The position numbers were made by a program, and so were the translations under genes. Of a stretch of DNA of 64,000 bases, positions 8,056 through 60,177 are shown piece by piece. The stretch is from Rhodococcus sp. JCM 9791 (lineage in GTDB: Bacteria; Actinomycetota; Actinomycetes; Mycobacteriales; Mycobacteriaceae), in NCBI GenBank assembly GCA_001312645.1, contig BBEG01000002.1, positions 1 to 64,000 of the forward strand. Reading direction: 5' to 3'. The number at the start of each line of letters is the position of its first letter. The stretch's first letter is position 1. Under the pieces are notes generated by a model. That model worked only from the letters and a program-made list of their open reading frames with translations, did no database searches and was not told where the DNA came from.

Positions 8056-8061
8056 TATTCT
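8049..8061. promoter_or_regulatory. Perfect dyad AGAATAGTATTCT upstream of the amidohydrolase gene
   Basis: AGAAT-AGT-ATTCT is a perfect 5-bp-arm dyad 25 bases before the amidohydrolase start. It differs by one spacer base from the dyad at 57026-57038 before the acyl-CoA dehydrogenase gene. It is followed by CTCACAACGAGAG. It probably marks an internal promoter or operator. Confidence 0.5.
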
Positions 8062-8086
8062 CACAACGAGAGAAGGAGCATTTCTG

Positions 8087-10689: not shown

Positions 10690-10723
10690 GTCGACTCACC
10701 ACCGCACTACAGGAGGAGGCACG

Positions 10724-11014
10724 ATGAGGGACGAAGCTGCAATGCTGGCCTTCGCCTTGAAGTGGAGGCATTGGAACGGCGGCCCCGACGAAGATATCTT
10801 CGTCGAATTCGGCATCACCCCGCCGGAGTTCTTCCACCGACTGCGCGTGCTCCTGACGCGGGATCGGTGGAATCGGCTCGACCCGGAGATCCTCGACCAA
10901 CTCGTCAAGGTCTGCGACGAGCGTATCGGCGCGATCGACATCCGGTCGGTCGCCGACCGCGATCGGGCGAAGTTCGCCTCGCCCCAGCATCCACTCAGCA
11001 GGCTCTCGGCCTGA
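10724..11014 (+). CDS. Small DUF3263-like protein
   Basis: Intact 96-residue soluble protein. The pattern MLAFALKWRHWNGGPDEDIF followed by FGITPPEFFHRL resembles the DUF3263 family of small actinobacterial proteins, probably helix-turn-helix like; this is from memory of the family pattern. The start at 10724 has a strong AGGAGGAGG site. It is the last gene of the ligase/amidohydrolase unit and is followed by a terminator. It could be a local regulator. Confidence 0.6.
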   Translation: MRDEAAMLAFALKWRHWNGGPDEDIFVEFGITPPEFFHRLRVLLTRDRWNRLDPEILDQLVKVCDERIGAIDIRSVADRDRAKFASPQHPLSRLSA

Positions 11015-27075: not shown

Positions 27076-28076
27076 GTGATTCACCTCCGGATACAGACCC
27101 CACCGGCACCTTGACGGGGTTCACGCACGCGACGTCGTGATCGACGCCGAAGGACTCGAGCTCGATCGGCGCGGACGAGCATGCGTCCTCCGCGTTCGAG
27201 CAGCGAGGAGCGAACCTGCACCCTTCGGGGGCGAGGTCGGGTCGGGAAGCGATCCTTCGATCAGACGCAGAGGCGAATGCCGTTCGTGGTCGATCGACGG
27301 TGTCGCACCCAGGAGCGCATGTGTGTAGCGATGCATAGGCGCGTCGAACACTCCGCGAGTGGACCCGATCTCTGCGAGACGACCCGAGTACATGACAGCC
27401 ACCCGGTCGGTGCGACCGGCGACGACAGCCAGGTCGTGGCTGATGAGCATCATCGCCATGTTCCGATCGCGTTGTACGCGGCGGAGCAGATCGAGGATCT
27501 GACGCTGCACGGTCACGTCCAAGGCCGTGGTCGGTTCGTCCGCGATCAGAAGATCCGGCTCACACGCCAAGGCGATCGCCAGCATAACGCGCTGACGCAT
27601 GCCGCCGGACATCTCATGTGGATAGTTCCTCAGGCGACGCTCCGGATCGGGCACACCCACTTCGTCCAGGAGTTTCAGCGCGCGATCGTGGGCTTCGGAC
27701 TTGCTCACGCCGAGGTGTCGTCGCATTCCCTCGGTGAGCTGACGTTCGACCCGCACAACCGGATTGAGGGACCGACCGGGATCTTGAAAAACCATGGCGA
27801 TCTGGTTTCCCCAGATCTCCAGTTTCTCCTTCTTGCTCAGGGACAACAGATCACGTCCCTGGAAGGTGACCTCGCCGGAACGACCCGAGCGTGGCGGCAT
27901 CAGACCCATGATGCACGGGCCATGACCGACTTGCCGGAGCCGGACTCGCCGACGATACCCAGCGCCTGTCCGGAGTCCAGGTTCAGCGACACATCGTCCA
28001 CAGCACGGACGGTGCCTCGCGGCGTGCCGATGTAGGCACGTAGATTTCTCACTTCGAGAAGCGGCTGAGCATTCAC
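27065..28076 (-). CDS. Oligopeptide/dipeptide-type ABC importer ATPase (DppD-like; two frameshifts)
   Basis: ATP-binding subunit of about 336 residues. It has Walker A GESGSGKS, signature MSGGMRQRV, Walker [13 protein letters not shown] and H-loop LISHD. The true C terminus, read after a shift near 27215, holds the family motif [15 protein letters not shown] and ends inside the next gene start; a second shift is near 27905. GTG at 28076 is the likely start, 28 bases after the binding-protein stop. It should pair with the DppF-like ATPase to power the importer. Confidence 0.88.
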
Positions 28077-28104
28077 GGCGAGCCGGCCCTTTCGGTCGTG
28101 TCGG

Positions 28105-29703
28105 CTAGTTACTGATCCAAAGCTCTTCGGGCAAGGTCGAGCCGAGGCTGAACAGCTGTACCCCATGCGTGTCCTCGCTGAAGGTCACCGACGGCAATGC
28201 ACGGGTGTACCAGAGGCCCACGGCGGTGTCGGCGAGAATCTGCTGTACCTCGTCGTATGCCGCCTTGCGCTCCTCTTGGGTTGCGCCGAACCGGCCGCGA
28301 TCGAGCGCAGCGTCCAGTTCAGGATTGTTGACGCCCATGAAGTTTCCGGTGGAGTCCGACGTGAACGCCATCGACAGGGCGTAATCGGGATCCTGGGTGA
28401 CCGCGGACGAGATGAGCATGTCGAAGTCGCGTGCGCCCGCGCGCGCCGTCACGGCCGCGAAGTCGGTGACCTCCACGTTCATCTCCACGTTCTCGAAGGC
28501 GCTGAGTTGAGCTTGAATCGCCTCGGCGAGCACGCGGCTTTCGGTCGTCGGGTACGACAGGAAGGTGAACTTGACAGGCTTGCCTTCTGCGGCGAGTTCG
28601 TCGAAGAGACTCTGTGCTTCTTCGATGTTCGTCTCGCCGAGCGGAATGTCGGCGTAGAACGGTGAGTCCTCGGGGAAGAACGTGGTGGGGACCTCGCCCT
28701 CACCGTTGTAGACCACGGTGTTCACGGCGTCGAGGTCGACAGCCAGCGACACTGCACGACGCGCACGCTCGTCGTCGAAGGGCGCACGACGTTGATTCAT
28801 ACCCACATACTGGCCGCCACCAGTGGACGTCACGACGTACTGGAGCCCTGCAGCGTCGGCCTTGTTGACGTTGGTCCAGCTCGTCTCTGCGGTCAGGTCG
28901 GCCCCGCCTGTAGTCATGGTGTTCGACCGCTGGCTGGCATCGGCCACCGTGCGAATCTCCAGCGTATCCAGATACGGCTTGGGCGCATCCCAATACCCGG
29001 GATTCTTCTCGAGTGTCACCACGTCCTGACGAGCCCAGTTGACCAGGGTGAACGGGCCTGCACCGATCGGGTTCTGATCGAACGCCTCACGCCCCTGCTC
29101 GAGTGCCGCCGGCGACGCAACCCAGTTGAGCGCGCCCGCAACAACAGCCTGACCGAACTGCGGGTTCGGCTCCACCATCGTCACACGCAGCGTGAGCGGA
29201 TCGACAGCCTCGGTCGACTCGACCTCCACTGCCTGCCGGATGGTGGTGGACCCCAAAGCAGGGTCCTTGAGTCGATCCCAGTTGTACTTCACCGCGGCAG
29301 CATCCAGCGGTGTGCCGTCACTGAAGACCAGATCCGGCTGAAGAACGAGGGTGTAGGTCTTGCCACCGTCCTCACTCGAGAAGTCGGTGGCCATCTTGTA
29401 TTCGAGCTCGAACGTGTCGTTGTTCGTCACCATCAACGTGCCGTAGAGCGCATTGCCGAGGAGGGGCTGGTGCGCCCATGTGTTGGACAGCTGCGCGGGG
29501 TCGAGCGACCGCGGTTCGCCCATCTGCATGATGCGTGCAGTGCCGCCGGCGACGGGATCGCCGGCCTCCACTGTGGCCGCAGTCGAATTGCTGGCAGACC
29601 CGGAATCCCCTCCGGCGCCGCATGCACCCAGAACCAGTGCCGCGGAGCAGGCGGCTGCGAACGCGGCCACCATACGTCTGTGTCGGATCATTCTCGACCT
29701 CAT
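28105..29703 (-). CDS. ABC importer solute-binding lipoprotein, peptide/nickel family (SBP_bac_5)
   Basis: Intact 532-residue extracytoplasmic binding protein. The signal peptide ends in lipobox LVLGACG, followed by a serine-rich linker and the SBP_bac_5 fold ([40 protein letters not shown]). It is paralogous over its whole length to the protein at 14596-16202. The ligand is unknown; members bind peptides, metals, sugars or organic acids. It lies between the permease genes and the two ATPase genes in one unit. Confidence 0.9.
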
Positions 29704-29748
29704 ACTTTCATGTACTTCAGGACTACGATCGGCGCGCGCTGAACGTGT

Positions 29749-30651
29749 TCAGTCGTGCAGCGTGCGGTCGTACTTTGTGCGAAGGTGATCGCCTACTTGA
29801 TTGAGGCCGAACACCGTGAGGAAGATGACGAGTGAAGGAACCATCACCAGGTGAGGTGACGTGGACAGCGCGTCCTTGCCATCGTTGATCATCCCGCCCC
29901 AGCTCGGCTGCGGCGGCGGAATGCCGAGGCCGAGGAAGCTCAGGGAGCCCTCGGCAACGATGAGAGCCGCCATCACGATGGGGAGGTAGGACGCGAGCGG
30001 CGCGATCACGTTGGGCGTGATCTCTCGGAACAGGATGCGGCCGTTCCCGGCTCCCATGTTCTTTGCAGCCCTGACGAATTCACGCGACGACCAGGAAAGA
30101 GTATTCGCGCGGGACAGTCTGATGAACGACGGAACAGCCATCAGACCGAGGCCCAGCAGCATGGTCGGCACGCTCGGAGTCAGGATCGACGCCAGCGCGA
30201 GGAGAAGGATCAGCGGGGGAAACGCGAGCATGGCATCGGTGATCAGGGTGATCACGGAGTCGAGCTTCTTGCCGAAGTAGCCTGAGATCAAGCCGAAGAA
30301 GGAGCCGATCACGAACCCGGTCAGGCCGGCGACGGCACCTATGACGAGCGAGACCTGCGCGCCGTAGACGATGCGCGAGAGCATCGATCGGCCGAGTGTA
30401 TCTGTTCCCAGGACCAGGTCGAGGGACTCGAACGACGGGGGCTGACGAGGAGATCCGATCGGAACATCGTAGGGCGCAATGGGAAGCAGGCCTGCGAAGA
30501 TCGCGGCACCGATGATGACGACAAGCCAGACGATCGACAGGTAGACCAGGATCGAACGCTGTTTCTTTACGGCCGGGACGTCGGGTAACGTCGCGGCGCT
30601 CTTTCCCGTGGAGACGCCGTCTCCACGCTTCTCGAGCGCGACCTGCGTCAT
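29749..30651 (-). CDS. ABC importer permease, DppC-like
   Basis: About 300-residue inner-membrane permease with N-terminal segment, about six hydrophobic helices and the EAA coupling loop REFVRAAKNMGAG. ATG at 30651 reads TQVALEKRGDG and has GGAGC just upstream. In the sequence as given it is in one open frame with the upstream permease; I separate them because the upstream protein, after restoring two bases near 30672, ends with RVRKVVGA and a TGA overlapping this ATG. Confidence 0.8.
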   Translation of the reverse strand: MTQVALEKRGDGVSTGKSAATLPDVPAVKKQRSILVYLSIVWLVVIIGAAIFAGLLPIAPYDVPIGSPRQPPSFESLDLVLGTDTLGRSMLSRIVYGAQVSLVIGAVAGLTGFVIGSFFGLISGYFGKKLDSVITLITDAMLAFPPLILLLALASILTPSVPTMLLGLGLMAVPSFIRLSRANTLSWSSREFVRAAKNMGAGNGRILFREITPNVIAPLASYLPIVMAALIVAEGSLSFLGLGIPPPQPSWGGMINDGKDALSTSPHLVMVPSLVIFLTVFGLNQVGDHLRTKYDRTLHD

Positions 30652-31599
30652 GCTCCGACCACCTTCCTGACCCGCGTCGATGACTTGGTAGCTGAGGTCG
30701 ACGAGGGTGTTGATACCGACGTACACGACCGCGATGAAGACGACGATGCCCTGCACCATGATTACGTCACGTGACGTGATGGACGAAGCAACCAACTGCC
30801 CCAATCCTGGTAGACCGAAGAGTGTTTCGACGATCACGGTGCCTCCGATCAGCCGTCCGAGGTTGATGCCCGCGACCGTGATGAGTGAGAAAGACGATGG
30901 CCGCAGCGCGTGCCGGAGCATCACGTACCAGGAGGGCATCCCCTTGGCTCGCGCCGACGCCACGAAGTCCTCGCGAAGCGTGCCGATGAGGTCGGTACGC
31001 AACAGTCGGTGGAATGCGGCGATCTCGGTGAGCGCGATCGCGATCGCCGGGAGGATCGCACCGCGCAGGTTGTCGCCGAGCCCTTCGCTCAGCCGCGACC
31101 AGCCCATCACCGGGAAGATCTGCAGCTGGATCGCGAAGTAGTAGATCAGCACCGGACCGGCGATGAATGCCGGCACCGAGAGAAACACTGCCGACAGTGC
31201 GTTGATCGCCCGGTCGACCTTGCTGCCCGGACGCGAAGCCGAGACGATGCCCATCACGAGGGATACGACCAACGCGATGATCAGCCCCATGGCCGCGAGC
31301 TGCAGCGTGACGGGCAGACGCTCGACGATCGCCTCGCTCACCGATTGCCCTGTCAGCGGGGAGGTCCCCAGATCGCCGCGCACTGCGTTGCCCAGCCAGT
31401 CGATGTACCGAACCCAGAACGGTTGATCCAGGCCGAGTTCGGAGTTCATCTGGGCGACCGCTTCGGGCGTGGCGTTTTCGCCCAGGATTACCTGCGCAAC
31501 CGATCCCGGCGCGAAACTGAGCAGGGCGACGACCGCAATCGTGACCAGCAGGACAACCAGAATGCTGCGCCCCACCCGTTTGGAAACCGTGGATATCAT
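30648..31599 (-). CDS. ABC importer permease, DppB-like
   Basis: About 317-residue permease and first gene of the importer unit. The N-terminal helix (SILVVLLVTIAVVALL), the large loop with GLDQPFWVRYIDWLGN, and the EAA loop EDFVASARAKG are typical of DppB/OppB. The end YQVIDAG runs straight on into the DppC-like protein in the given sequence; a two-base loss near 30672 would explain this, since the restored frame gives a normal C terminus and an ATGA overlap. The alternative is a genuine gene fusion. Confidence 0.8.
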
Positions 31600-31707
31600 C
31601 CGAACTCAACTTTCATCGCGATACCGGAATCGTGCCGCCCAGAACAAGAGACGAAGTGCTTGTGACGGCTCCCACAGTAGGACGTTCTCGCGCTGACGGC
31701 AATATCA

Positions 31708-43098: not shown

Positions 43099-44024
43099 CC
43101 TTCACTTCCCCACAATCCTCAGCGATCGAGGAGGCCGGTGTCGGCGACGCGTGGAGTTCCTCACCCGTCTCCCGCGTCGTCGATATCGAGGGCATCCCGA
43201 TCTCGGGACTCCTCCTCGAGGCCCCCGAGCCGCGCGCAGTGATCGTGGCACTGCACGGAGGTGCCGCGTTCTCCGCATATTGGGACTGCCCCGGCCACCC
43301 TGACCTGTCGATGATGCGCGCCGCTGCCCAGAGCGGATACACGGTGCTGGCTCTCGACCGTCCCGGTTACGGCGCCTCGAGGCCGTTCGCCGAGGAACTC
43401 CGCGATTCGCAGCGTCGGGCCGACCTCACCTACGCGGCAGTCGATGCCGTCCTCGGCTCGGGTTCCTGCAGGACCGGCCTGTTCCTGTGGGGCCACTCGG
43501 TCGGCAGCGAACTGGCAGTTCGGATGGCCACCGACGACCACGGCCACGATCTGCTCGGCCTCGCGATTTCCGGCACCGGTCGCGAGCACCACGCGCTCGC
43601 GGTCGGAATCCTCGGCACGCGTGAGCGATACGCTCAAGCAAAAGGTGTGGGCGAACTGATCTGGACTCCCGCGGAGGACCTCTATCCACCCGACGTCATG
43701 GGCGGCGCAGCAATCGGCTCTCGCACACCGGATTACGAAGCCGATGTCACTGCGATCTGGCCCACTGAGACGTTCCCACCGCTCGCAGCGCGAGTGCGTG
43801 TCCCCGTCCACTACACCGCCGCCGAGTACGAGCGAGTATGGCGCAGCGACCCGGAGGCACTCGACGATGTGGCCTCGATGTTCACCGCATCCCCTCGCGT
43901 CGCCACCGCCCGGATTCCCGGAGGCGGCCACAATCTCAGCATCTGCAACGCCGCACCGGAGTACCACCGGACGGTCATGAACTTCATCGACGACTGCCTC
44001 GCACGCGAGGGTAAGGACACATGA
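43095..44024 (+). CDS. Alpha/beta-hydrolase fold protein
   Basis: Intact 309-residue hydrolase. The nucleophile elbow is LWGHSVGSELA, the oxyanion region VIVALHGGAAFSAYWD, and the likely catalytic histidine is in IPGGGHNLSIC near the C terminus. It may cleave an ester, lactone or thioester in the pathway. It overlaps the DUF35-thiolase stop and the next dehydrogenase start by ATGA, so it is translationally coupled to both. Confidence 0.87.
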   Translation: MTFTSPQSSAIEEAGVGDAWSSSPVSRVVDIEGIPISGLLLEAPEPRAVIVALHGGAAFSAYWDCPGHPDLSMMRAAAQSGYTVLALDRPGYGASRPFAEELRDSQRRADLTYAAVDAVLGSGSCRTGLFLWGHSVGSELAVRMATDDHGHDLLGLAISGTGREHHALAVGILGTRERYAQAKGVGELIWTPAEDLYPPDVMGGAAIGSRTPDYEADVTAIWPTETFPPLAARVRVPVHYTAAEYERVWRSDPEALDDVASMFTASPRVATARIPGGGHNLSICNAAPEYHRTVMNFIDDCLAREGKDT

Positions 44025-44838
44025 TGCGCGTCGGATTCATCGGTCTCGGTAGCCAAGGCGGCCCCATGGCGCGCCGCATCGTCGAAGCCGGCTACGAAGT
44101 GACACTGTGGGCGCGCCGGAAGGAGTCGTTGGAGCCGTACGCCGACACCGCCGCGAAGTACGCAGATACACCCGCGCAGCTCGCGAAGGCCAGCGACCTC
44201 GTGTGCCTGTGCGTGGTGAGCGACGACGACGTCCGCGCAGTGATCACCGGCGAGAACGGCATCCTCGAAGGACTGCGCGACGGCGGCATCATCGCGATCC
44301 ACAGCACCATCCATCCCGACACCTGCAAGGAACTCGCCGAGGTAGCCCGCGAAAAGGGTGTGTCGATCATCGATGCACCGGTCAGCGGCGGCGGCATGGG
44401 CGCGGCGGCGGGAACGCTGCTCGTCATGCTCGGCGGGGACGACCACACCGTCGAAGCGGCCCGGCCGGTGTTCGAGACGTACGGCAACCCCGTCGTCCAC
44501 CTCGGCGACCTGGCGCCGGGCAGGTCGCGAAGCTGCTCAACAACCTGCTCTTCACCGCCAACCTGTCGACTGCGGCGAGCACCCTCGAACTCGGTGAGTC
44601 GCTCGGCGTCGACCCCGCCAAGCTCGGTGAGGTCGTCTCGCACGGCACGGCGAACAGCTTTGCGCTGGGCCGTGTCGTCTCTGCCGGCGGCCTCGAGCGG
44701 ATCGCAGGTCACGCCGGTGAGCTACTGCGCAAGGACGTCACGCTCGTCGCGAGCCTTGCCGCCGGCGTGGGAGCCTCGGCCGGGATTTCTCTGACCACGG
44801 CAGACGCCACCCTCGACATGATGGGATATCAGCGATGA
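44021..44838 (+). CDS. 3-Hydroxyisobutyrate-dehydrogenase-like NAD(P) oxidoreductase, copy A (one frameshift)
   Basis: About 272 residues of the beta-hydroxyacid dehydrogenase family. The NAD(P) motif is VGFIGLGSQGGPMARRI, the substrate-binding block IIDAPVSGGGMGAAAG, and the catalytic lysine is in GQVAKLLNNLLF, seen after restoring one G near 44520. It is followed with an ATGA overlap by a second member of the family. Likely reaction: oxidation of a 3-hydroxyacid to a semialdehyde, or the reverse. Confidence 0.85.
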
Positions 44839-45628
44839 GCCGCATCGGATTCATCGGGGCAGGCCGCATGGGTATGCCCATGGTCGAGCGTCTGCTCGGT
44901 GCAGGTCACGATGTTCGGGTGCTCGGACGATCCGACGAGTCGCGCGCCGCGATCGAAGCAGCGGGAGCGAAGGCGGTCGCTGACCTCTCGGAAATCGGTG
45001 TCGATGCCGATCTCGTGACAGTGTGCGTCTTCACCGACGCGCAGGTCCGTGAGGTGTGCCTCGAACGCGGCTCCTGCAGTCGATGCCGCGAGGGTCGTGC
45101 CTCGTGATTCACACGACCATCAGCCCGAAGACGATCGACGATCTTGTCGCCGTGGCCGAGCCGCTGGGAATCGCTGTCGTCGACGCTGCAGTGAGCGGCG
45201 GCCCGCACAACATTGCGGCGGGCGATCTCGCGCTCTTCGTCGGCGGGGCCGAAGACGCGGTCGGACGCATCGGCCCGATACTGAAGAGCTACGGCAATCC
45301 ACTGATCCATGTCGGCCCGAGCGGAAACGGACTTCGCGTCAAGCTCGTGAACAACGCGCTGTTCGCCGCGCAGATCGGGCTTCTGGCGGAGGCCGAAGAG
45401 CTCGGAAGGCAACTCGGTGTCGCACCGGAGACGCTGTTCGAAGCTCTCCCGTACGGCAGTGCGTCGTGCAAGATCATGGGCAACGTCGCGATGCGCGGGT
45501 CCGTCGAGGCGTTCCGCACATCCGTGGGTGAGTTCATCTCGAAGGATGTCTCGGTGGTGCGCAACACGGTTGCCGAACTCGGCGCCGACCTCGGTGTGCT
45601 GGACACCGCGATCAACGCGCGAACCTGA
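44835..45628 (+). CDS. 3-Hydroxyisobutyrate-dehydrogenase-like NAD(P) oxidoreductase, copy B (one frameshift)
   Basis: About 264 residues. It has IGFIGAGRMGMPMVERL for cofactor binding, VVDAAVSGGPHNIAAG for substrate binding, and the catalytic lysine in LRVKLVNNALF. The shift near 45062 is a GGG read as GG. It is only moderately similar to copy A, so the two are distinct enzymes or subunits, not a recent duplication. Last gene of the plus-strand unit; it converges on the ligase gene 10 bases away. Confidence 0.85.
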
Positions 45629-45638
45629 CCGACACGGT

Positions 45639-47198
45639 TCAGATGACCCGGGTGTCGTGACCGGCCCAGTACTGGTCGCGCACTCGGCGCTTGTACAGCT
45701 TCCCGTTGGGGTCGCGGGGAAGTTCGTCGACGAAATCGATGCTGCGAGGGCACTTGTAGGACGCGAGTTCGGCCCGGCAGAAGGAGATCAGTTCGGCCGC
45801 CAGGTGCGCACCCGCCTCCGACGGATCCAGTAGCTGGATAACGGCTTTGACGGATTCGCCCATCTCGTCGTCGGGCACTCCGATCACCGCGGCGTCCGCT
45901 ACCGCGGGGTGCGTGACGAGCAGGTTCTCGGTCTCCTGCGGGTAGATGTTCACACCGCCGGAAATGATCATGAATGCGACTCGGTCGGTGAGGTAGAGGT
46001 ATCCGTCCTCATCGCGGTATCCCATGTCGCCGAGGGTCCGCCACCCCTTGTCGTTCGTGACGGACGCGGTCTTCTCCGGATCGTTGTGGTATTCGAACGG
46101 GCGACCTCCAGCGAAGTAGATCGACCCGATCTCACCGTCGGGAAGCTCTTCGCCGTCCTCACCGACGATGTGGCATTCCTGCATGGGCCGCCCGACGGAT
46201 CCGGGATGCTCCAGCCACTCCGCAGCGGTAATGATCGAGGTTCCGACATCTTCTGTTCCCGAATAGTATTCGTCGATGATCGGGCCCCACCATTCGAGCA
46301 TCTGCCGCTTTACCGGTATCGGGCACGGCGCCGAGGCGTGGACGACCGAGCGCAGGCTCGACATGTCGTACCGGGAGCGCTCGGACTCGGAAAGTTTGAG
46401 CATGCGGACGAACATCGTCGGAACGAACTGGGCGTGGGTGACCCGATGTCTCTCGATGAGCTCGAGGCACCGCTGAGGATCGAAGCTCTCCATCACCACG
46501 ACGGTGCCGCCGAGCCGGTGCCACGACATCGAGAAGACCAGCGGCGACGAATGATACAGCGGTGCCGGGGACAGATAGACCACGTCCGATTGTGGACCAC
46601 TCATGACCAGCCCCTTGGCGATCTGCACGGGGGCCGATGACGGGTCGCCGAACGCGGTTCGGGGCAGCGGCTTGCGCACACCCTTCGGGAATCCGGTGGT
46701 ACCGCCCGAGTAGAGCATCTCGCGCCCCTCGGATTCGTCGATCGGCTCGAAGGTCTCGCGGTCGAGAACTTCGTCGTAGCATTCGAAACCCGGCATGTCG
46801 CCGGAGGCGCACACCCGGACGGGGATATTGCCGAGGTCGAGTTGTTCGACAGTCTCGCGCACCGTGTCGCTGGTGATCAGCGCGGTGGCGCCGCAGTCGT
46901 CGAGTACGTGCTGAACCTCGCCGGTCTTGAAATGTCGATTGATCGCGGTGTAGTACAGGCCGGAGCGCTGAGCGGCCCAGCAGATTTCGAGGAAGGGCCG
47001 GTTGTTCTCCATGAGGATGGCAATGTGATCCCCCGGCATGATCCCGCGGGCCCCGAGCGCACGGGCGAACCGCACCGAGCGTTCCTCGAGCTGTGCGTAG
47101 GTCACAGTCTCGCCGCTCGTGCCCATCACGATCGCCGGCACCTCCGGACGCGCGTGGGCGTGTGCGGACGGTGTCAATCGGATATCGGTGCCCGTCAC
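45639..47198 (-). CDS. AMP-dependent acyl-CoA synthetase/ligase, third copy
   Basis: Intact 519-residue ANL ligase. Motifs: EMLYSGGTTGFPKGVRKPL (ATP binding), EYYSGTEDVGTS (A5), WRTLGDMGYRDEDGYLYLTD, RVAFMIISGGVNIYPQE and RDPNGKLYKRRVRD with the catalytic lysine. GTG at 47198 is the start. It stands alone on the minus strand between two units, with a candidate operator 80 bases upstream. It is probably specific for an acid entering or leaving the neighbouring pathway. Confidence 0.92.
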   Translation of the reverse strand: MTGTDIRLTPSAHAHARPEVPAIVMGTSGETVTYAQLEERSVRFARALGARGIMPGDHIAILMENNRPFLEICWAAQRSGLYYTAINRHFKTGEVQHVLDDCGATALITSDTVRETVEQLDLGNIPVRVCASGDMPGFECYDEVLDRETFEPIDESEGREMLYSGGTTGFPKGVRKPLPRTAFGDPSSAPVQIAKGLVMSGPQSDVVYLSPAPLYHSSPLVFSMSWHRLGGTVVVMESFDPQRCLELIERHRVTHAQFVPTMFVRMLKLSESERSRYDMSSLRSVVHASAPCPIPVKRQMLEWWGPIIDEYYSGTEDVGTSIITAAEWLEHPGSVGRPMQECHIVGEDGEELPDGEIGSIYFAGGRPFEYHNDPEKTASVTNDKGWRTLGDMGYRDEDGYLYLTDRVAFMIISGGVNIYPQETENLLVTHPAVADAAVIGVPDDEMGESVKAVIQLLDPSEAGAHLAAELISFCRAELASYKCPRSIDFVDELPRDPNGKLYKRRVRDQYWAGHDTRVI

Positions 47199-47383: not shown

Positions 47384-48335
47384 TCAGTGGTCGGCCGGAT
47401 CTCCCAGCGACACGTGGTGGAGTTCCTCCAAGTACCGCACCACATCCGTCTGGTCTGCGGCCGGATCGAGTTCGTCGACCGCCGCGTTCCACAACCTGCC
47501 CACTGCCTCCCCGAGGAGCGGTGAAATCTCCTGATCGTGCGCGAGGTCGAGTGCAATTCCGATGTCCTTGCGCATCAGGCGCGCGGCGAACCCGGAGTCG
47601 AACGAGCGGGACAACACGAACTTCTCGAACTTCGTCTCGGTCGCCTGATTTCGTCCGCTGCTCGCGTTGAGCACGCCGAGCAACGTGGCGGGATCGATCC
47701 CGAACTTGCGGCCGACGAGAAGCGCTTCCGCCGCGATGAGTACGTTGTTCGCGGCCATCAGGTTGTTGAGGCCTTCGCCGCGTGACCGGATCCGACCGGA
47801 CCGACGTGGATGACGTCGGTGCCGTCGCCTTCAGCAGGGGGACCACCGAATCGACTGCGGCCGCGTCTCCGCCGACCATCACGGCGAGCGCGGCTTGCCG
47901 GGCCCGCGCGACACCGCCACTGACCGGGGCGTCGACGACTGCGATCCCCTTCTCTGCCGCAGCTGCGGCGAGTGCCTGTGTGCGCGCGGGGATGCTCGAC
48001 CCCATGTCGATGATCGTGCTACCGGGCCGAAGGTGCTTCAGCAGACCGTCGTCCGAGAGGACGACGCTGTCGACGATGTCGCTCGTCGGGAGCACCAGGA
48101 CCACAATGTCGCAGTCCGCGAAGTCGGCCGGACCCGCTGCGCCCCGGATACCGGTGTGGCCGGCGAGGAACCGTTCCTGGGAGGTCGTATCGGCGTCGAA
48201 CACCACCGTGGATTGCCCGCTGGCCACGAAATTCTGTGCGATGGGCCGCCCCATCGCGCCGAGCCCGATGTGACCGACAGTCTTTCCGGGCAACGGCACG
48301 ATCTTGATCGTTGCAGTCTCCGGGCCGGCGGTCAT
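47384..48335 (-). CDS. 3-Hydroxyisobutyrate-dehydrogenase-like NAD(P) oxidoreductase, copy C (two frameshifts)
   Basis: About 317 residues. Cofactor motif VGHIGLGAMGRPIAQNF, substrate block VVDAPVSGGVARARQA, and catalytic lysine in HAAKALNNLMAANN once two shifts near 47820 and 47773 are repaired. It is the last gene of the LuxE/LuxC-like unit; ATG at 48335 overlaps the stop of the carboxymuconolactone-decarboxylase-like gene. It probably acts on a branched 3-hydroxy intermediate. Confidence 0.82.
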
Positions 48336-48777
48336 GCGTTGTCCTCGGCGGTGAGCGGGCCGAGTTCGGTCACGAGCACTTCCTGGACCACTCGCATAGC
48401 CGAAATACCTGCGGGGCAGCCACATAGGCGGTCGCGTGGACGACCGTCTCGGTGATCTCCTTGCGGGTGAGACCGTTGCCGAGACCCGCGCGAATGTGTG
48501 TCGCCAGTTCCTGGTGCTGGCCCAGCGCAATGAGAATGCTGATCGTCGCGAGTGAGCGGTCGCGGCGTTCGAGTCCGTCGCGCGTCCACACACCGCCCCA
48601 GACGAATTCGCTGACATACTCCTGCAGCGACTCTCCGTCCGAGCCTGCGTTGCGTTCGAGAGCTGCATCGACGTATGCGTCGCCGAGCACTTCCCTGCGG
48701 ACCGTGAGTCCGGCGTCGAAGAGTGCACGGTGCGCATCATCGACGGACGCTCCGCTCACCGCTGAGTCCTGGGTCAT
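48332..48777 (-). CDS. Carboxymuconolactone-decarboxylase-family protein (one frameshift)
   Basis: About 148-residue all-helical protein of the CMD/AhpD-like family. The pattern VWGGVWTRDGLERRDRSLAT then LATHIRAGLGNGLTRKEITE, followed by VVHATAYVAAP, is typical of the decarboxylase branch; the CxxC of AhpD peroxidases is absent. The C terminus (MRVVQEVLVTELGPL) is reached after a shift near 48405. ATG at 48777 has GGAAGGAA upstream. In this unit it may be a lactone decarboxylase or a structural homologue with another task. Confidence 0.82.
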
Positions 48778-51281: not shown

Positions 51282-52691
51282 TCAGGCATCGTCGTCGACC
51301 ACCCAGTTCACCATGCGGTGCAGCGGGTACATGCCGTCGTGCGGGCCACCCATGCTGCCGCGCAGTGCGCCGCCGAGCTTGACGATCCGCTGGACACCCG
51401 CGGTCGCGAGGTGATCACGGATCTCGGCCTTGCGGTGGTTCGGGTAGACGCCGACCGTCTGAGTTGCCACCGTCGCATAGGACGCGGCATCGCGCAGGTT
51501 CGCGATCGGAATGACGTTGACGGTCTTGAAATTGGGGTGGAAGTCGACCATCTCGGGAGAGCGGACCACGAGTCCGGAACCGTCGAACGTGCCCCACACG
51601 CGGTAGTCCGGCTCCAGGTAACGCATTCCTTCGACGCTTCGCGGATTTCGGAGTCGGGCTTCGGACCCACTGCGGACGCGAAATCGCGGTCCACTCCCAG
51701 CCGCTCGTGCAACAGCGCGCAGAAGCGATCGACCTGCTCGACGTCTCCCTCGACGCAGATGTGTCGCGCTGCGAGACAGGCGTCCTGGTTGAAGATCGTC
51801 GCGTCGGCGGCCGCGAGTTCAGCGACCTCCCGTAGCGTCTCTTCCGACTCGAATGCCTCGCGACCCACGATCGCCATCGAGACCTTCGGGTCGAACGAGA
51901 TCAGATCGAATCCCGGCCCCGCGTACTTCGCCGCGTTCTCGATCGCGGGACCGCCACCCCACGCCACAAGCTTGTCGAAGTACTGCGAGCGGTAGAGCAC
52001 GCCTTCGACCGACTCGTCGCCGCCACGCCAGTAGACCGCGGAGATCGACTTCAGGACGGGGTGGTCGGGTGCGATGTCGGCCATCGTCCGGAGCACGGCG
52101 ACGGTGGTGAACGGGTCTGCCGACGGCATCTTGAACACGTTGACGGCCTTGAGCAGTGCCGCGTCGGCGATCGACGTCATGGCGGCGCTCGGCGAGTTCC
52201 CGGCGAGCATGTGGACGAGTCGCGGCGGGAAGGCGCGGATCTTGCTGACGCTGCCGTTGGGATCGGTGTTCTCGACCCATCCGTCGAGTACGTCGATGCT
52301 TCCGAAGGTGCGTTCGAGCCGGTATTCGAGGGCTTTTTTTCGTCAGGAACTGCCCCGGTCGGCGGAAGGTGTTCTCGATGATCCGGCGAGGCAATGCGCT
52401 GACCTGCAGCGTCATCTCCAGCGATTCCTGAAGGTAGGGGTTCTTCTCCAGGGAGAGTTGCCCGGCGGTCTCGACGAGGAAGTCGATGATCTCCGAGATG
52501 GGCACATCGAAGGCCGGTCCGGGCTCCGTGCGCGGAACGAACAGTTCGTTGTATTCGATCTTGGGAGTCACGAACGGGACTCCGAAATCGCGCGAGAGGT
52601 ACTCGTTGTCCTCGCCCCAGACCAGCTTTCCGCGAACGAAATGCGGAACCTGGATCTTGGTGCGTGCTGGCGCAGGTGCAGTTGCGGTCAT
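51282..52691 (-). CDS. LuxC-like acyl-CoA reductase (two frameshifts)
   Basis: About 469-residue protein of the LuxC family (acyl-CoA reductase), close to the usual 480 residues. It has a family N-terminal domain (IEYNELFVPRTEPGPAFD), the cofactor-binding stretch AGNSPSAAMTSIADAALLKA and the acyl-accepting cysteine in TIFNQDACLAARH. LuxC reduces an activated acyl group to an aldehyde with NADPH. Shifts lie near 52337, where a run of seven A needs six, and 51630. It starts seven bases after the LuxE-like stop, so the two are surely co-expressed. The acyl group is unknown. Confidence 0.85.
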
Positions 52692-52697
52692 GGTGCT

Positions 52698-53995
52698 CTA
52701 CTCCCCTACGATTCCGCGGACATAGGCGTCCATGGTTCCGGCACAGGTGATCTTGTCGTCGTCGCCGAGGTCGGAGTACCGCACGATGTTCGGCATGACG
52801 GTCTCACCGTCGCGCCCACACGGGCAGCGACCCTGATCGACGGTGATCTTGTCGCCCGAGATCGTGCCGCCCCAGCGACCGTCGACGGTGGTGTCGACGA
52901 ATGCGGCCCGGCCTTCGACGATGTTGTCCGAAGCCTCGGCGAGTGCGTCGCCGTCCTTGTTCAGAACAAGGAGGACGACCTCCTTCGGCACGTGATAACG
53001 CCCCTCTTCCGGGCACTTGAACAGGCGGTTGTTGAGTTCCTGCATGGAGTAGTAGTGCAGGAAGCGCTCCGGAGCGATGTTGAGCATCCGGTAGATCTGT
53101 TCCTGGTAATCGTCGGGCAGGTTCGTACCCTTGAGTCCGCCGCCGCTGGTCAGTCCGTTGAGGCCGGTGATGTCGCCGTCCTTGATACCCCGCTCACGGA
53201 GGACCTCGACGAGGCGGTACAGCTGCGGGAACTGCGAGCTGAACAGGATGTTCTCGTCACGGTGCGCGAGGACCTGGTCGGCGTAGTGGTTCAGCTTCTG
53301 TTCCTGGAGCGCGGCGCGTTCGGCGGCTTCCGCCTCGAAGGACGCGATGTCGTCGGGAGCCGCAGTGCCGTCGGCCATCGCGCGACGCATCGCCGACAAC
53401 CGGGACAGGTAGCGATGGAACCCTTCCGGTGCGGGGCCGTCGAACAGCGGGAGCGCATCCGACTTTGAGAACGAGTTGATGATCAGATCGCGCACGGCTG
53501 CGTGCTGAGTCTGTCCGGTGTCCGGCCCGACCGGGATGACGTGCCATGCCGTTTCGGGCGGCATTCCCAATGAGTCGAAGCATGCGAGCAGGTTCTGCTT
53601 GTTGACCTCGAAGTCGCGGTAGGACTTGTTGAGGAACGAACCTTTTCCACTGGTTCCGCTCGAACTCGACACCATGTGGCCGGCCTTCTCCAGCGCGGCG
53701 ATCCAGCCGTCCACGTCGGTGACACCGGATACGTCGACGTCGTCGACCCGGCGGGTGGACAGCGAGCCGAGCCACCGGTTCATCTGCTCCCACTTGCCCT
53801 TCGCGATAAGCGATTCCGGGTAGCTCTTGTAGGTCGTGTGGGGGAAGAGCAGGGGAACGATGTCCTCGCGGGAACGAATTTCGGTGATGCCTGATCATCC
53901 GCACGCTGAGTCAGGACGGGGACCTGTCCCCGTCGCTCCTGGAAGTACGAATTCAGCGTCCCGATGACGTCTTTCTGCATCGTCGTTTCTGTCAC
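52698..53995 (-). CDS. LuxE-like acyl-protein synthetase (one frameshift)
   Basis: About 432-residue member of the LuxE family, ATP-dependent enzymes that activate a fatty acid as acyl-AMP, hold it on a cysteine and pass it to LuxC. The ATP-binding loop is SSSSGTSGKGSFLNKSY; ITGLNGLTSGGGLKGTNLPD, FLHYYSMQELNNRLF and GRCPCGRDGETVMPN are further conserved-looking blocks. The shift is near 53885. GTG at 53995 has GGAGGG close upstream. It is divergent from a TetR gene around a long imperfect palindrome. No LuxD-like transferase is present. Confidence 0.82.
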
Positions 53996-54813: not shown

Positions 54814-55657
54814 GCCGCGATCTCGTCCAGGATCGGTAACACGACATCGTCGTCCGCAGTCGGGACGTCGACGATCACCCGCTCGACAGGCATCTGCCGA
54901 AACCTGTCCAGCACATCGGCGAGGTCGGGACGAAGTCCCTGCAGGACCGTCACCCGGATACTGTCCGGATCCCGGCCCACCCGCTCGAATTCGACGGCGA
55001 GTTGCTTCAGGTCCTCTTCGAGGGTGTCCACCGGATGATGCCCCATGGGTATCCAACCATCCGCCCACTTCGCGATCCTGCGGAATCCGATCGGACCGGA
55101 CCGCGCTCCCAGCAGGAGCGGAGGATGCGGGCGTTGCAGAGGTTTCGGCCACACTCTACTGGGCGACAGCCGCACGTGCTTGCCGTCGTACGATGCTTCT
55201 TCCTCGGTCCAGAGGCTTTTCATCAGCGCGATCTTTTCTTCGACCACCTTGTACTTGTCGCGAGCGTCGTACCCGTGATCTTCGAATTCGTCGTTGTTCC
55301 AGCCGAAACCGACGCCGAGAACGAGACGACCACCCGACATGACATCGAGTGTGGACACAGCCTTTGCGTAGGAAATCGGGTCGTGCCCGCCGGGAAGCGC
55401 CGTGCAGGTTCCGACGGTCAGGCCGGTCGCCGCAGCGACGAACGACAAGCTCACGAGCGGTCCCACAGACGGAAATAACCGTCGGGTAGAACTCCGCCAC
55501 CAGGGAAGGGCGTCCGGCGGACACTCGGAATATGTGAATGCTCCGGCACGAACAGTGATTCGAACCCGCGATCCTCCGCGGCACGCGCGAGGTCGACCAG
55601 CGGCATAGACGTATCGGTTCCGCCGTAGTGCAGCCCGACTCCCATGGAGTCGGTCAT
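54804..55657 (-). CDS. LLM-class, probably F420-dependent oxidoreductase (one frameshift)
   Basis: About 284-residue luciferase-like TIM barrel. Family blocks are LFVPEHSHIPSVR, TLDVMSGGRLVLGVGFGWN and RPHPPLLLGARSGPIGFRR. It resembles the F420-dependent TIGR03619-type group, not the LuxA/LuxB luciferase subunits. The shift is near 55455. ATG at 55657 overlaps the SDR stop. It lies next to the LuxE/LuxC-like unit but faces the same way from a separate promoter region. Confidence 0.83.
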
Positions 55658-56490
55658 GTCGCGGACTCAGCGCGTCGGGCAGTAATTGCTGCCATGACAC
55701 CGCCGTCGACGAGGACGTCGATGCCGTTGACGAAGCTCGCACCGTCGGACAGCAGGAACGCCACGACCTTTGCCAGCTCGTCTGCCTGCCCGAGTCGTGC
55801 GAGCGGCGTCGCGCGCTGCATGTCGGCGATACGCGGATTACTCGCCGCCTCCTGCCTGCCCTGCGGAGTATCGATCAGCCCCGGCGACACGGAGTTCGCA
55901 CGTGCTCCAGCGGCACCGAGCCGGATGGCTTCCGCACGCGCGAATCGCTGCACACCGTGCTTCGCCCACGAGTAGGCGATACCCGGTTGCTCGATCGATT
56001 CGCCCACGATCTCGCGGAGCCTGTCGAGGAAATGTTCATCGAGCGGATCATCCAGGACTGCACCCAGTTCCGGGTCCGGATCCATCCGCCCGATCAGCGG
56101 TGCCATGGAAGCGAAATAGACCATCGCCGTACCTGCGGTCGCAAGCGGACGAAGCGTGTGCGCGAGCAGTGCGGTACCGACCAGGTCGACCGACACGATC
56201 CTGCGCCAGTCGGCCATGGTCGGAGAGATTCCGGCGGCGTGAGCGACGGAACGCAAGTTTCCGAGTTCGGCCGCGCGGTCCGCGAGTCTGCCGAGCGCTT
56301 CGGCGTCACCGACATCGGCGACGAACGACTCGACCACGGTCCGGTCCGATGACAACCGCGCCGCGGCCTCTTTCGCGGAGGTCTCATCGATGTCGACGAG
56401 TAGCAGTGTGTCGACTGTGCCGACCATCCGCTCCGCGCACGACAACCCCATCCCGCGACCTCCACCGGTCACGATTCCGACGTTTCCCAT
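55654..56490 (-). CDS. Short-chain dehydrogenase/reductase
   Basis: Intact 278-residue SDR. Cofactor motif VTGGGRGMGLS, AHAAGI, active site YFASMAPLIG and YSWAKHG (YxxxK), end NGIDVLVDGG. The long loop between the serine and tyrosine (about 50 residues) resembles 3-alpha-hydroxysteroid-dehydrogenase-type SDRs. ATG at 56490 has GAGGGAAA upstream. It is followed by the overlapping LLM gene and lies 43 bases after the VOC gene. Confidence 0.87.
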   Translation of the reverse strand: MGNVGIVTGGGRGMGLSCAERMVGTVDTLLLVDIDETSAKEAAARLSSDRTVVESFVADVGDAEALGRLADRAAELGNLRSVAHAAGISPTMADWRRIVSVDLVGTALLAHTLRPLATAGTAMVYFASMAPLIGRMDPDPELGAVLDDPLDEHFLDRLREIVGESIEQPGIAYSWAKHGVQRFARAEAIRLGAAGARANSVSPGLIDTPQGRQEAASNPRIADMQRATPLARLGQADELAKVVAFLLSDGASFVNGIDVLVDGGVMAAITARRAESAT

Positions 56491-56533
56491 ATTTTCCCTC
56501 TTCGCCTCGTTGATCTGCCGACCTGCACTACGA

Positions 56534-56977
56534 CTACTGCGGCGCCGCCCAGCACTGCGACATACTCGGTTCCACCACACGGGTCACGAATTCGAGCAGG
56601 AGCCCGGACGGGCTGCGCATGAAGGCGAAGAAGAGGCTGCCGTCGGGCGCCTGGCGGGTTGCTTCCGTGCTGTAGCCCTGGCCTGCGAACTCGTCGCGAT
56701 CCGCGTCGACGTCGTCGGACCAGTAGCCGAGATGGTGAATACCGGGGACCGACTCCCACAGAGGTGCCGGTGCACTCCGGACGAGTTCGATGCGCGGCTC
56801 GGTGATCGAGAACGCACACAACAGATCGACCACCTGATCACCCGTCGGGAGCGTCACCGCTACCTCACCGCCGACCTCCGGCCCCCACTCGTACCCGAAG
56901 AGCTGCGTGAATTCGGCCTTCGTGCTGGCCAGATCGTCAGTCACGACGCCCAGATGGAAAAGGTCTTCGGCTTTCAA
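56534..56977 (-). CDS. VOC-superfamily (glyoxalase/dioxygenase-like) protein
   Basis: About 147 residues with two VOC half-domains: DLFHLGVVTDDLASTKAEF and GIHHLGYWSDDVDADRDEF, plus SGLLLEFV with a metal-ligand-like glutamate. Members act as epimerases, lyases or ring-cleavage dioxygenases, or simply bind ligands. The start is uncertain: TTG at 56977 fits the family, with AAAGG upstream; TTG at 57007 is an alternative. First gene of the unit with the SDR and LLM enzyme. Confidence 0.75.
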   Translation of the reverse strand: MKAEDLFHLGVVTDDLASTKAEFTQLFGYEWGPEVGGEVAVTLPTGDQVVDLLCAFSITEPRIELVRSAPAPLWESVPGIHHLGYWSDDVDADRDEFAGQGYSTEATRQAPDGSLFFAFMRSPSGLLLEFVTRVVEPSMSQCWAAPQ

Positions 56978-57038: not shown

Positions 57039-57083
57039 GGAAAGACGGAATCGACATTCTTTTGATCAGAGAGGAGCCAGGCA

Positions 57084-58384
57084 ATGGCGTGGGACTTCGA
57101 AACCGACCCCGAATACCAGGAGAAACTGGACTGGGCCGACGCATTCGTGCGCGACGAGGTCGAGCCCCTGGACCTGGTGTGGGAGCACGAACAGTTCGTG
57201 CCCCTCGACGGGCTTCGGCGCAAGGCCATCGATCCGCTCAAGCAGCGGGTTCGTGAACAAGGCCTGTGGGCCACACACCTCGGGCCGGAACTCGGCGGCC
57301 AGGGCTACGGGCAGCTCAAGCTCGCCCTGCTGAACGAAATTCTCGGTCGCTCATCGTGGGCACCGATCGTCTTCGGATGCCAGGCGCCCGATACCGGCAA
57401 CGCAGAGATCATTGCGCACTACGGCACTCCTGAGCAGAAGAAGAAGTATCTACAGCCGCTGCTCGACGGCGAAATGTTCTCCACGTATTCGATGACCGAA
57501 CCGCAGGGCGGCGCCGACGTTGCGCAGTTCCGCACCCAGGCGGTCAAGGATGGCGACGACTGGGTCATCAACGGCTGGAAGTACTTCTCCTCCAACGCCA
57601 AGACGGCCTCGTTCCTGATCGTGATGGCCGTGACCGACACCGAGGTTCCGGTTCACAAGGGCATGTCGATGTTCCTCGTGCCATCCGACACCCCCGGTAT
57701 CGACATCGTGCGCAACGTCGGTCTGTACGGCGAGCCGATGAACGGGGGTAGCCACGCACTCATCCACTACGAGAACGTGAGGGTCCCCGCCGAAGCTCTC
57801 CTCGGTGGCGAAGGCCAGGCGTTCGCCGTCGCTCAGACTCGGCTCGGCGGCGGCCGCATCCACCACGCGATGCGCACCATCGGCCTCGCCAGAAGGCCCT
57901 CGACACGATGTGCGAACGCGCGCTGAGTCGTGAGACCGCCGGCAGCCGCCTCGCCGACAAACAAACGGTCCAGGGCTACATCGCCGACTCCTACGCGCAG
58001 CTGACGCAGTTCCGCCTGTTCGTGCTGCACACCGCGTGGAAGATCGACAAGTACAACGACTACAAGAAGCTCCGCAAGGACATCGCGACGGCGAAGATCG
58101 TGATGCCGACCGTGCTCCACGACATCGCCTGGCGCGCAATGCAGGTACACGGAGCGCTCGGCGTCACCAACGAGATGCCGTTCTTCAAGATGATCCACGG
58201 CGCGGCCGTCATGGGTCTGGCCGACGGACCGACCGAGGTCCACAAGACGACCGTTGCCAAACAGGTCCTGCGCGACTACACCGCAACCGACGACCTGTGG
58301 CCCTCGGAGTGGCTCCCGCGCAAGCAGGACGAAGCCCGTGCCAAGTACGCCGAATACCTCGAACTGGAAGTGGGGAACCTGTGA
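57084..58384 (+). CDS. Acyl-CoA dehydrogenase, ACAD10/11-like (one frameshift)
   Basis: About 433-residue flavoprotein that removes two hydrogens from an acyl-CoA. FAD-binding blocks are FSTYSMTEPQGGADVAQF and WVINGWKYFSSNAKTAS; the region LGGGRIHHAMRTIGLAQKAL and the end QVHGALGVTNEMPFFKM are typical of the ACAD10/ACAD11 group. The shift near 57890 is a CCC read as CC. The stop overlaps the start of the APH-like kinase gene, as in ACAD10/11, where the two domains are fused. Confidence 0.9.
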
Positions 58385-59402
58385 TCGACACGAAACGACT
58401 CGCCGAGTGGATGGACGAGCGCGGACTGCCTGGTAAGGGCGCCCCGCTCGAAGCCACCTATCTTTCGGGCGGCACGCAGAACGAAATCTACAAGCTGGTC
58501 CGCGACGACTTCACGAGCGTCATCCGGATACCGCCGAAAGCCGCGCCCGCCGACCGCGACAACGGAATCATTCGCGAGTGGAGAATCATCGAGGGCCTCG
58601 ACGGTACCGACGTGCCCCACACCGCCGCGATCGCCGCATGCGAGGACACCTCGGTGCTCGGCCGCGCGTTCTACCTCATGGGATTCGTCGACGGCTGGTC
58701 CCCCATGGATCATCGCGACGGCTGGCCCGCTCCGTTCGACAACGATCCCGAGGCACGTGCCGGTCTCGCCTACCAGCTCGCGGAGGGCATCGGCCTGCTG
58801 TCGAAGGTCGATTGGAAAGCTCAGGGCCTCGAAGGCCTCGGACGACCGGATGGTTTCCATGATCGACAGGTCGACCGCTGGACCGATTCTTCGAGCGGAT
58901 CAAAGCCCGCGAGATCGAGGGCATGGACGTCGCCACCAAGTGGCTACAGAATCACCGGCCGCTCGACTACATCCCGGGCCTGATGCACGGCGACTACCAG
59001 TTCGCCAACGTGATGTACAAGAACGGCGCGCCCGCGAAGCTCGCAGCGCTCGTCGACTGGGAAATGGGCACCGTCGGCGATCCGAAGCTCGACCTCGGCT
59101 GGATGCTCATGAACTGGCCCGAGGACATGGACGCCCCCGGAGAAAGCGCGGTCAGCTACGTCGACCTGAGCGGCATGCCGAACCGGTCGCAGATGCTCGC
59201 CCACTACTCCGAGGTCTCCGGTCGTCAGGTCGACGACATCGACTACTACCTCGTCCTCGCCAAGTGGAAGCTCGCCATCGTCCTCGAGCAGGGCTTCCAG
59301 CGCGCCGGCGACGACGTGAAGCTGCAGTCGTACGGTCCGGTCATCACCAACCTCATGAAGTCGGCCGCCGACCTCGCCGAATCGACGGACTACCAGGGAT
59401 GA
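58381..59402 (+). CDS. APH-like phosphotransferase, ACAD10/11 kinase-type (one frameshift)
   Basis: About 340-residue protein kinase-like/aminoglycoside-phosphotransferase fold. The catalytic loop is LMHGDYQFANVMYKNG (HxDxxxxN) and the metal loop LVDWEMGTVGDPKLDLGW. The N lobe begins LEATYLSGGTQNEIYKLV. The shift is near 58885. GTG at 58381 overlaps the dehydrogenase stop and its own stop overlaps the hydratase start. In ACAD10/11 this domain phosphorylates the hydroxyl of 4-hydroxyacyl-CoA; the same job is likely here. Antibiotic resistance is unlikely in this setting. Confidence 0.87.
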
Positions 59403-60177
59403 GCGAACCGGTGGAAGGACTCGTACAAGAACAACACGGCGCGGTTCTCCTGCTTCGGCTGAACCGCCCCGAGGCACGCAATGCGCTGACCGGTGCCGTG
59501 ATCAACGGGATCGGTGCAGCCGTCGAGAACGCGGAGGCAGATCCTCAGATCCGGGCGATCGTCCTCATCGGCACCGGCGACCGCGCGTTCTGCTCGGGCA
59601 TGGATCTACGAGCATTCGCAAGCGGCGAGAAGATCGGGCTGGACTCCGGCCCCGGTGCCGCGTACGCGCGGCTGGCCAAGGGCGAGACGGACATTCCTGT
59701 GATCGGCGCCGCCAACGGCACCGCGATCGGCGGTGGGCTCGAACTTCTCCTCGGATCCGACATCATCGTTGCCTCCTCGGCGGCGAAGTTCGGTCTTCCC
59801 GAGGTGAAGCGGGGTCTGTTCCCCGCCGGAGGCGGCACCAACTCGGGACGCGGATTCCTCGGGCGGCCGCTCTGGAGCTGACACTGACCGGCGACCTGAT
59901 CACTGCGCAGCGCGGATACGAACTCGGTCTGATCAACCAGGTTGTCGAACCGGAAGGCGTACAGTCGGCTGCGCTGGCATTCGCCGAACGCATCGCGGCG
60001 AATGCCCCGCTGGGCCTCTCAGCGGTCAAGGAACTCGTGCGTCTCGCGCAGGTGGACCCGGCGCGCGCGGACGAGCGTCTCGGACACTGGCAAAGCCTCG
60101 TCTTCTCGAGCGACGACGCCAAGGAAGGTGCGGCCGCGTTCGTCGAGAAGCGCGCACCGGTCTGGCAAGGGCGGTAA
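59399..60177 (+). CDS. Enoyl-CoA hydratase/isomerase family protein (one frameshift)
   Basis: About 259-residue crotonase-fold enzyme. Oxyanion-hole blocks are RAFCSGMDLRAFASG and GAANGTAIGGGLELLLGSD; LPEVKRGLFPAGGGT follows, then after a shift near 59855 LTLTGDLITAQRGYELGLIN. ATG at 59399 overlaps the kinase stop. With the dehydrogenase and kinase it forms a compact route that would move unsaturation and rehydrate the chain. Confidence 0.87.

Follow-up and report, generated by a model that had tools for sequence, protein, structure and literature searches.

Adjacent genes for LuxC and a distant LuxE homologue in a Rhodococcus operon: a putative two-protein carboxylic acid reductase

Introduction

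The closest described counterpart of the genes studied here is the LuxC–LuxE pair of Photobacterium phosphoreum (7XC6), which is encoded in a luxCDE operon. Carboxylic acid reductase (CAR) is a single-chain A–T–R enzyme that converts an acid to the aldehyde at the expense of ATP and NADPH. PaaK-type phenylacetate/acyl-CoA ligases belong to the ANL superfamily, and in these CoA ligases the C-terminal ANL domain completes the CoA-ligation half reaction. For the luminescence enzymes, PMC8301110 gives Cys286, within YDQQACFSTQ, as the acylation site of P. phosphoreum LuxC and Cys364 as the acyl-acceptor cysteine of LuxE. LuxE/LuxC genes also occur in flagellin glycosylation islands, away from luciferase, according to PMC4875605. 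In addition, a Chloroflexota plasmid (L116) carries adjacent, annotated LuxE/LuxC-type genes away from luciferase. Unlike the Rhodococcus pair described below, these are matched by PF04443 and PF05893, and they have other neighbours.

Here, a 64,000-nucleotide stretch of contig BBEG01000002.1 of Rhodococcus sp. JCM 9791 (the window) was analysed. A first-pass annotation had recognised adjacent LuxE and LuxC homologues in this DNA, followed by genes for further oxidoreductases. The occurrence of LuxE/LuxC genes outside luminescence is already known; the LuxE-like branch and its putative catabolic setting appear to be new. In the literature searched (mostly without subscription journals and bioRxiv), no account that places a LuxE/LuxC pair within a catabolic operon, no description of this unrecognised LuxE branch and no lead to its substrate were found.

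Results

Gene content and reading frames of the locus

The LuxE-like gene and luxC are separated by 6 bases on the minus strand (Table 1). Downstream, the aldo/keto reductase (AKR), aldehyde dehydrogenase (ALDH), carboxymuconolactone decarboxylase-family (CMD) and hydroxyacid dehydrogenase genes of the first-pass annotation were all found, the last with a match to NAD_binding_2, and an acyl-CoA ligase gene comes next. Thiolase and CoA transferase genes are also among the island neighbours in Rhodococcus.

Table 1. Features of the lux-like locus and its surroundings (positions in the window).
Feature	Position	Strand	Remarks
Two convergent HIBADH-like genes	44015..45625	+	Present too in the 11 same-genus loci
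Acyl-CoA ligase (AMP-binding)	45639..47198	-	FadD4-like, below NCBIfam cut-off
3-Hydroxyisobutyrate-dehydrogenase-like oxidoreductase (HIBADH, NAD_binding_2)	47393..48293	-	Two frames
CMD	48379..48735	-	PcaC-like, below NCBIfam cut-off
ALDH, PF00171	48821..50284	-	BADH-like, below NCBIfam cut-offs
AKR, PF00248	50277..51289	-	Two frames
LuxC, predicted acyl-thioester reductase	51282..52691	-	Frameshifts at at least 2 places
LuxE-like, putative acyl-protein synthetase	52698..53995	-	Adenylating enzyme (predicted), C-terminal candidate acyl-acceptor Cys; frameshift near 53890
TetR-family regulator, AefR-like C-terminal domain PF14246	54125..54810	+	Divergent; two frames
Luciferase-like monooxygenase family gene, PF00296	54804..55742	-	6.6e-36; beside TetR gene
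Short-chain dehydrogenase	55654..56580	-	
ACAD, APH-family kinase and ECH genes of island	57066..60174	+	

Several genes across the window (1-64000) are each broken into two or three parts that lie in different frames, and the host assembly, of 947 contigs, reaches 76% completeness. The closest named matches of the locus are in Rhodococcus sp. SMB37 and HNM0563. The SMB37 orthologues (locus L023) are intact, with a LuxE-like protein of 432 amino acids encoded at 8044–9342 and a LuxC of 467 amino acids encoded at 9349–10752, and are 95% (LuxE-like) and 98% (middle part of LuxC) identical to the window sequences. The existence of these intact orthologues indicated that the spans listed in Table 1 are right as gene extents. 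A pseudogene reading of the locus was rejected: many genes of the window are broken, yet luxE and luxC are open and directly consecutive in 11/11 same-genus island loci. Because the breaks hit many genes and the orthologues are open, indels in the assembly are the likelier cause, and the frame breaks in the window are probably assembly errors. A natural LuxE–LuxC fusion, hinted at by long open frames spanning both genes in Frankia loci, was likewise discarded, as no single frame in 86 loci holds both HMM matches.

The LuxC protein

Two pieces of the window gene matched PF05893 (4e-35 and 2.8e-14; 121.9 and 53.2 bits, cut-off 21), and the third, N-terminal piece had no match in Pfam. The motif FNQDACLAARH is present, and its acyl-site cysteine, reported as kept by the first-pass annotation, was invariant in an alignment of LuxCs from related loci (68/68; position 303 of the intact protein, 300 in the trimmed row), as well as in a smaller alignment (9/9). 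The larger alignment comprised 68 of the 70 LuxCs above 450 bits; L090 and L095 were left out, and split LuxCs fell below the filter. When the 68-LuxC profile was searched against the PDB, a single match below 0.001 was obtained, to the LuxC chain 7xc6_A (1.5e-55), in which the NQxxC of the family aligned to DQQAC with the cysteines in register. Consistent with this result, the predicted LuxC model (pLDDT 89.9) retrieved 7xc6_A as its top Foldseek match (2.6e-23, vs 7.3e-15 for the next aldehyde dehydrogenase). By these sequence comparisons, the gene encodes a LuxC of the PF05893 family, whose nearest solved relative, with the same fold and catalytic cysteine, is the LuxC chain of 7XC6.

The Rhodococcus LuxC differs from the long-chain-fatty-acyl-CoA reductase LuxC equivalog (NF052251, cut-off 750 bits), against which the SMB37 protein scored 164 bits and three further LuxCs of the family 137–178 bits. 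The substrate may therefore be something other than a long-chain fatty acid.

The LuxE-like protein

Curated models do not recognise the partner of LuxC. The largest open piece of the window gene, 53894–52701 (-), had no match to a LuxE model in Pfam, its only Pfam matches at E up to 1 being PF17389 (0.019) and PF03687 (0.26), both sub-cut-off; NCBIfam gave zero matches up to E 0.1. Genome-wide profile searches with PF04443 returned zero matches in the window's own genome and in those of L101, L102 and L103. PF04443 and LuxE models likewise did not match the LuxE-like proteins of L034, L082, L101, L103 and L078, nor did NF052244 match those of L023, L017 and L101. In a set of seven family members, PF04443 was reached by one (E 0.0017) and AMP-binding by two, at 0.0062 or worse, compared with 147–657 bits against PF04443 for three reference LuxEs. 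These references came from a set of five records, of which L117 and L118, lacking annotation, were left out.

Searches with family profiles gave a different picture. A profile of seven relatives retrieved the LuxE chain 7xc6_E first from the PDB (4.8e-7), ahead of a PaaK-type ligase (1.1e-5), and with 71 relatives 7xc6_E was again the best match (7.8e-5), followed by a PaaK-type ligase at 0.007. The 71 sequences came from the 80 luxE loci described below (left out: L038, L044, L058, L072, L074, L080, L090, L095 and L108). In hhalign, the family aligned with the three PF04443 LuxE proteins at Prob 98.2 and E 6e-14, and the alignment reached the tail. There, a cysteine that is invariant in the family (71/71; Cys418 in the 432-residue SMB37 protein) was in register with the tail cysteine of lux-operon LuxE; among the three references, that cysteine occupies the same column in two and is shifted by one column in the other. 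This cysteine lies 13–15 residues from the end in 78/85 frames with the pattern, which was missed in 3/88, and the reference cysteines lie 11, 14 and 22–23 residues from the end. In its first-pass annotation, the assignment to LuxE was to be abandoned if HMM searches placed the protein elsewhere; the Pfam and NCBIfam models do leave it outside LuxE, but profile–profile and PDB-profile searches place it beside LuxE. On this sequence evidence, the protein is a distant LuxE homologue that falls outside the Pfam/NCBIfam LuxE models.

The elements SSGTxGK, YxMxE, GD and a late Arg, which we take to be AMP-forming motifs, were invariant or nearly so in the LuxE-like alignment. A CxCG motif was found in the family, in PaaK-like proteins and in two of the three PF04443 LuxE references. 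The predicted model of the SMB37 orthologue (pLDDT 86.5) consists of an adenylation domain to approximately residue 411 and a disordered tail (409–432) that holds Cys418. Residues 1–411 gave VIA Z scores of 19.9–22.2 against PaaK-type AMP-forming enzymes, and a PaaK-type adenylation domain is thus predicted. The top matches listed by Foldseek and VIA were CoA ligases (PaaK, HCL, ClxA) and related AMP ligases; 7xc6_E was absent among the matches listed. Trimmed structural matches ended near residues 310–364 of ligases of 398–477 residues. The protein accordingly shares with PaaK-type ligases the fold of residues 1–411, the P-loop, the AMP motifs and CxCG. It differs from them in a short tail that replaces the C-terminal ANL domain, in the invariant tail cysteine and in its genetic tie to LuxC.

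Linkage of luxE and luxC across genomes

Relatives were collected by LuxE-like sequence alone, and 80 of 191 were kept as named genome loci, from Actinomycetota and from Alpha-, Beta- and Gammaproteobacteria. luxC was the direct same-strand neighbour in 71/80 loci (70 in the automatic count, plus L063, where a second luxE copy is adjacent). One gene separates the two in L092, and the remaining 8/80 loci had no luxC in reach, two of them (L072, L073) ending within 0.9 kb of the LuxE-like gene. Direct adjacency in 71/80 loci means that the pairing is no chance event. Together with the PF05893 matches of LuxC and the profile searches for LuxE, it upholds the initial description of the pair as adjacent LuxE and LuxC homologues. 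The tail cysteine was also kept in the six aligned loci among the eight without luxC. LuxE-like genes without a nearby luxC were seen in L061, L068, L072, L074, L075, L079 and L086; in L068 such genes stand in tandem, and in L075 the gene lies beside a Rieske oxygenase.

On plasmids, 17 records gave a match; the loci of six were inspected, and all of them (6/6) contain the pair, with the synthetase annotated as 'hypothetical protein' in each. A phylum-wide sample of 296 genomes, with five candidates scored per genome among the matches shown, yielded matches in six. In three of these, among them the window's own genome, the match spanned the full length or most of it; the other three were partial matches (E 1e-14 to 1e-20) and were taken as PaaK-like.

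Distances between LuxE proteins correlated with those between LuxC proteins (r = 0.936, n = 64, raw values that include species kinship), and the nearest neighbour was the same for both proteins in only 40/64 loci. The LuxC tree mixes phyla. An Acidimicrobiaceae MAG (L059) and a Sphingomonadaceae MAG (L060) carry sister LuxCs and share a reversed order, luxC–luxE, which suggests transfer of the pair between phyla.

The operon and its accessory island

Among 18 Rhodococcus genomes, all 12 carriers (the window and 11 others) had the fixed order of a divergent TetR gene and luxE–luxC–AKR–ALDH–CMD–HIBADH. The luxE–luxC–AKR–ALDH linkage that the first-pass annotation had singled out for a search therefore holds throughout these carriers. 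AKR directly follows luxC in 20/25 of the closest loci. A divergent TetR gene precedes the pair in 23/25 of the closest loci and in 27/55 others. The ALDH–CMD–HIBADH triad occurs in order in 10/25 of the closest loci and beside the pair, on the opposite strand, in 11/55 others (Nocardia, Mycobacterium). These gene-order counts for the 25 closest and 55 other loci are lower bounds, some loci being cut by contig ends. An acyl-CoA ligase gene was near the operon in 6/11 same-genus loci.

Co-occurrence across the 18 genomes was examined for LuxE-like, LuxC, ALDH, CMD, HIBADH and APH kinase, with thresholds of E up to 1e-190 for ALDH and up to 1e-50 for HIBADH, and identities of >=74% for CMD and >=81% for APH. 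The operon-type versions of all six were found in the same 12/18 genomes and were absent from the other six, which had more distant CMDs (6/6) and, in two of the six, more distant APH kinases. Because the genes co-occur in this way, the operon looks like an accessory island gained or lost as one unit. In the APH and ACAD genes, the island may have a counterpart of the 4-hydroxyacyl-CoA kinase/dehydrogenase pair LvaA/LvaC of levulinate catabolism, a likeness that serves as a lead only.

The first-pass annotation had stated that no luxA/luxB lies at the locus. Strictly, no luxAB pair was seen; a PF00296 luciferase-family gene is nevertheless present beyond the TetR gene. We did not adopt a true luxA or luxB as its identity: the orthologue in L024 belongs to TIGR03619 (NCBIfam), of the F420 type, and besides the window only 4/11 same-genus loci have a PF00296 gene beside the pair. 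Moreover, the six genomes searched had 27–66 PF00296 matches each, the maximum being in the window's own fragmented genome. PF02273 (LuxD) matched in 0/6 genomes searched; as the control was equally without a match, a LuxD gene may have gone unseen.

Elsewhere in the window, an oligopeptide-type ABC transporter (ATPase, solute-binding protein, permease) is encoded at 26032-31605 (-).

Discussion

The luxE-like/luxC pair probably acts as a two-protein carboxylic acid reductase, in the manner of LuxE and LuxC within the fatty acid reductase of bioluminescence. The LuxE-like protein would take ATP and a free acid in its PaaK-type adenylation domain and form an acyl-AMP, from which the acyl group would pass to Cys418 in the flexible C-terminal tail. 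Cys418 would then hand the acyl group to the active-site cysteine of LuxC, which would reduce the thioester to an aldehyde with NAD(P)H; the AKR or ALDH of the operon may subsequently handle this aldehyde or a product thereof. We infer the activity, the order of the steps, the contact between the proteins and the catabolic role from sequence. The pair would form part of a regulated catabolic island, with a divergent TetR gene, CoA ligase, ACAD, kinase, ECH, thiolase and CoA transferase. The earlier suggestion that the unit reduces an acid to an aldehyde, as a step of catabolism or of biosynthesis, fits the kept cysteines, the cross-phylum linkage and the AKR and ALDH genes downstream, and catabolism is the setting that we favour.

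With the Photobacterium system, the Rhodococcus pair shares the adjacency of the genes and, through remote homology of the LuxE-like protein, the adenylation domain and the C-terminal cysteine. It differs in a LuxE-like branch outside the curated models and in its putative catabolic operon. The net reaction proposed is that of CAR, from which the pair would differ in the use of two proteins, a cysteine relay in place of the phosphopantetheine arm and a reductase of the aldehyde-dehydrogenase fold. Several observations count against this explanation: reducing an acid at the cost of ATP would be unusual for a catabolic operon, no curated LuxE model was matched above its cut-off, and one-tenth of the 80 loci lack a luxC in reach, with the tail cysteine kept in the aligned ones all the same. 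The nature of the neighbouring genes (CoA ligase, ACAD, APH kinase, ECH, thiolase and CoA transferase) suggests that the acid of the pathway is perhaps one that ordinary beta-oxidation fails to attack at once.

The acyl group might instead be exchanged as a free CoA thioester, between a LuxE-like protein that is a PaaK-type acyl-CoA ligase and a LuxC that works as an acyl-CoA reductase or as an acylating aldehyde dehydrogenase. We regard this as unlikely, although among the structure matches listed for the LuxE-like model the best are CoA ligases and AMP ligases related to them, and 7xc6_E does not appear. The Pfam name of LuxC, acyl-CoA reductase, also agrees with it, as does the CxCG motif common to PaaK-like proteins, although two of the three PF04443 LuxE references share that motif. 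Where CoA ligases carry their C-terminal domain, however, the SMB37 model has a 24-residue disordered tail with an invariant cysteine; this cysteine aligns with that of LuxE, and the partner protein is nearest to an acyl-protein thioester reductase. These features argue against exchange as a free CoA thioester.

Two other explanations concern the fate of the aldehyde. It is rather improbable that the unit is biosynthetic and produces an aldehyde building block or signal. On the Pseudonocardia plasmid pLS1-1 (L021 10984-13913), a type I PKS does lie just upstream of the pair and, with one gene between, a P450 downstream of it, and the flagellin glycosylation islands described in PMC4875605 also contain LuxE and LuxC. 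The Rhodococcus neighbours (ALDH, CMD, HIBADH, ACAD, ECH, thiolase, CoA transferase and CoA ligases), in contrast, are typical of catabolism. Very little probability is attached to a functional parallel with the lux pathway, in which the aldehyde would feed the luciferase-like monooxygenase and for which a role in light emission is not known. Its basis is the PF00296 gene beside the pair in the window and some same-genus loci, a PF00296-type gene in 20/86 loci in a lenient scan, and a Mycobacterium avium plasmid (L020 9839-12426) on which an F420-dependent LLM gene lies immediately ahead of the LuxE-like gene and overlaps its start. Against it, no PF00296 gene was found in 7/11 same-genus loci (the HMM may miss other subfamilies), and the window gene has an orthologue of the F420 type. 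With so many PF00296 matches in each of the six genomes searched, the proximity of one of them is weak evidence.

A wider proposition, somewhat short of even probability in our estimate, is that this second LuxE branch, nearly always found with LuxC, constitutes a widespread two-protein acid reductase of catabolic islands exchanged between actinobacterial and proteobacterial phyla. Such a reductase would act on acids other than long-chain ones by means of a swinging C-terminal cysteine, and would make the conversion of acid to aldehyde a regular step of breakdown. If so, the chemistry by which light-producing bacteria reduce acids serves metabolism elsewhere, a use that would have stayed hidden because the synthetase half is annotated as 'hypothetical protein'. 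The pair would then also offer biocatalysis a new family of small acid reductases made of two proteins, give access to a catabolic island that is so far uncharacterised, and help to trace the origin of the lux fatty acid reductase. Separately, the PKS-linked pair of Pseudonocardia may belong to an aldehyde-making natural product cluster.
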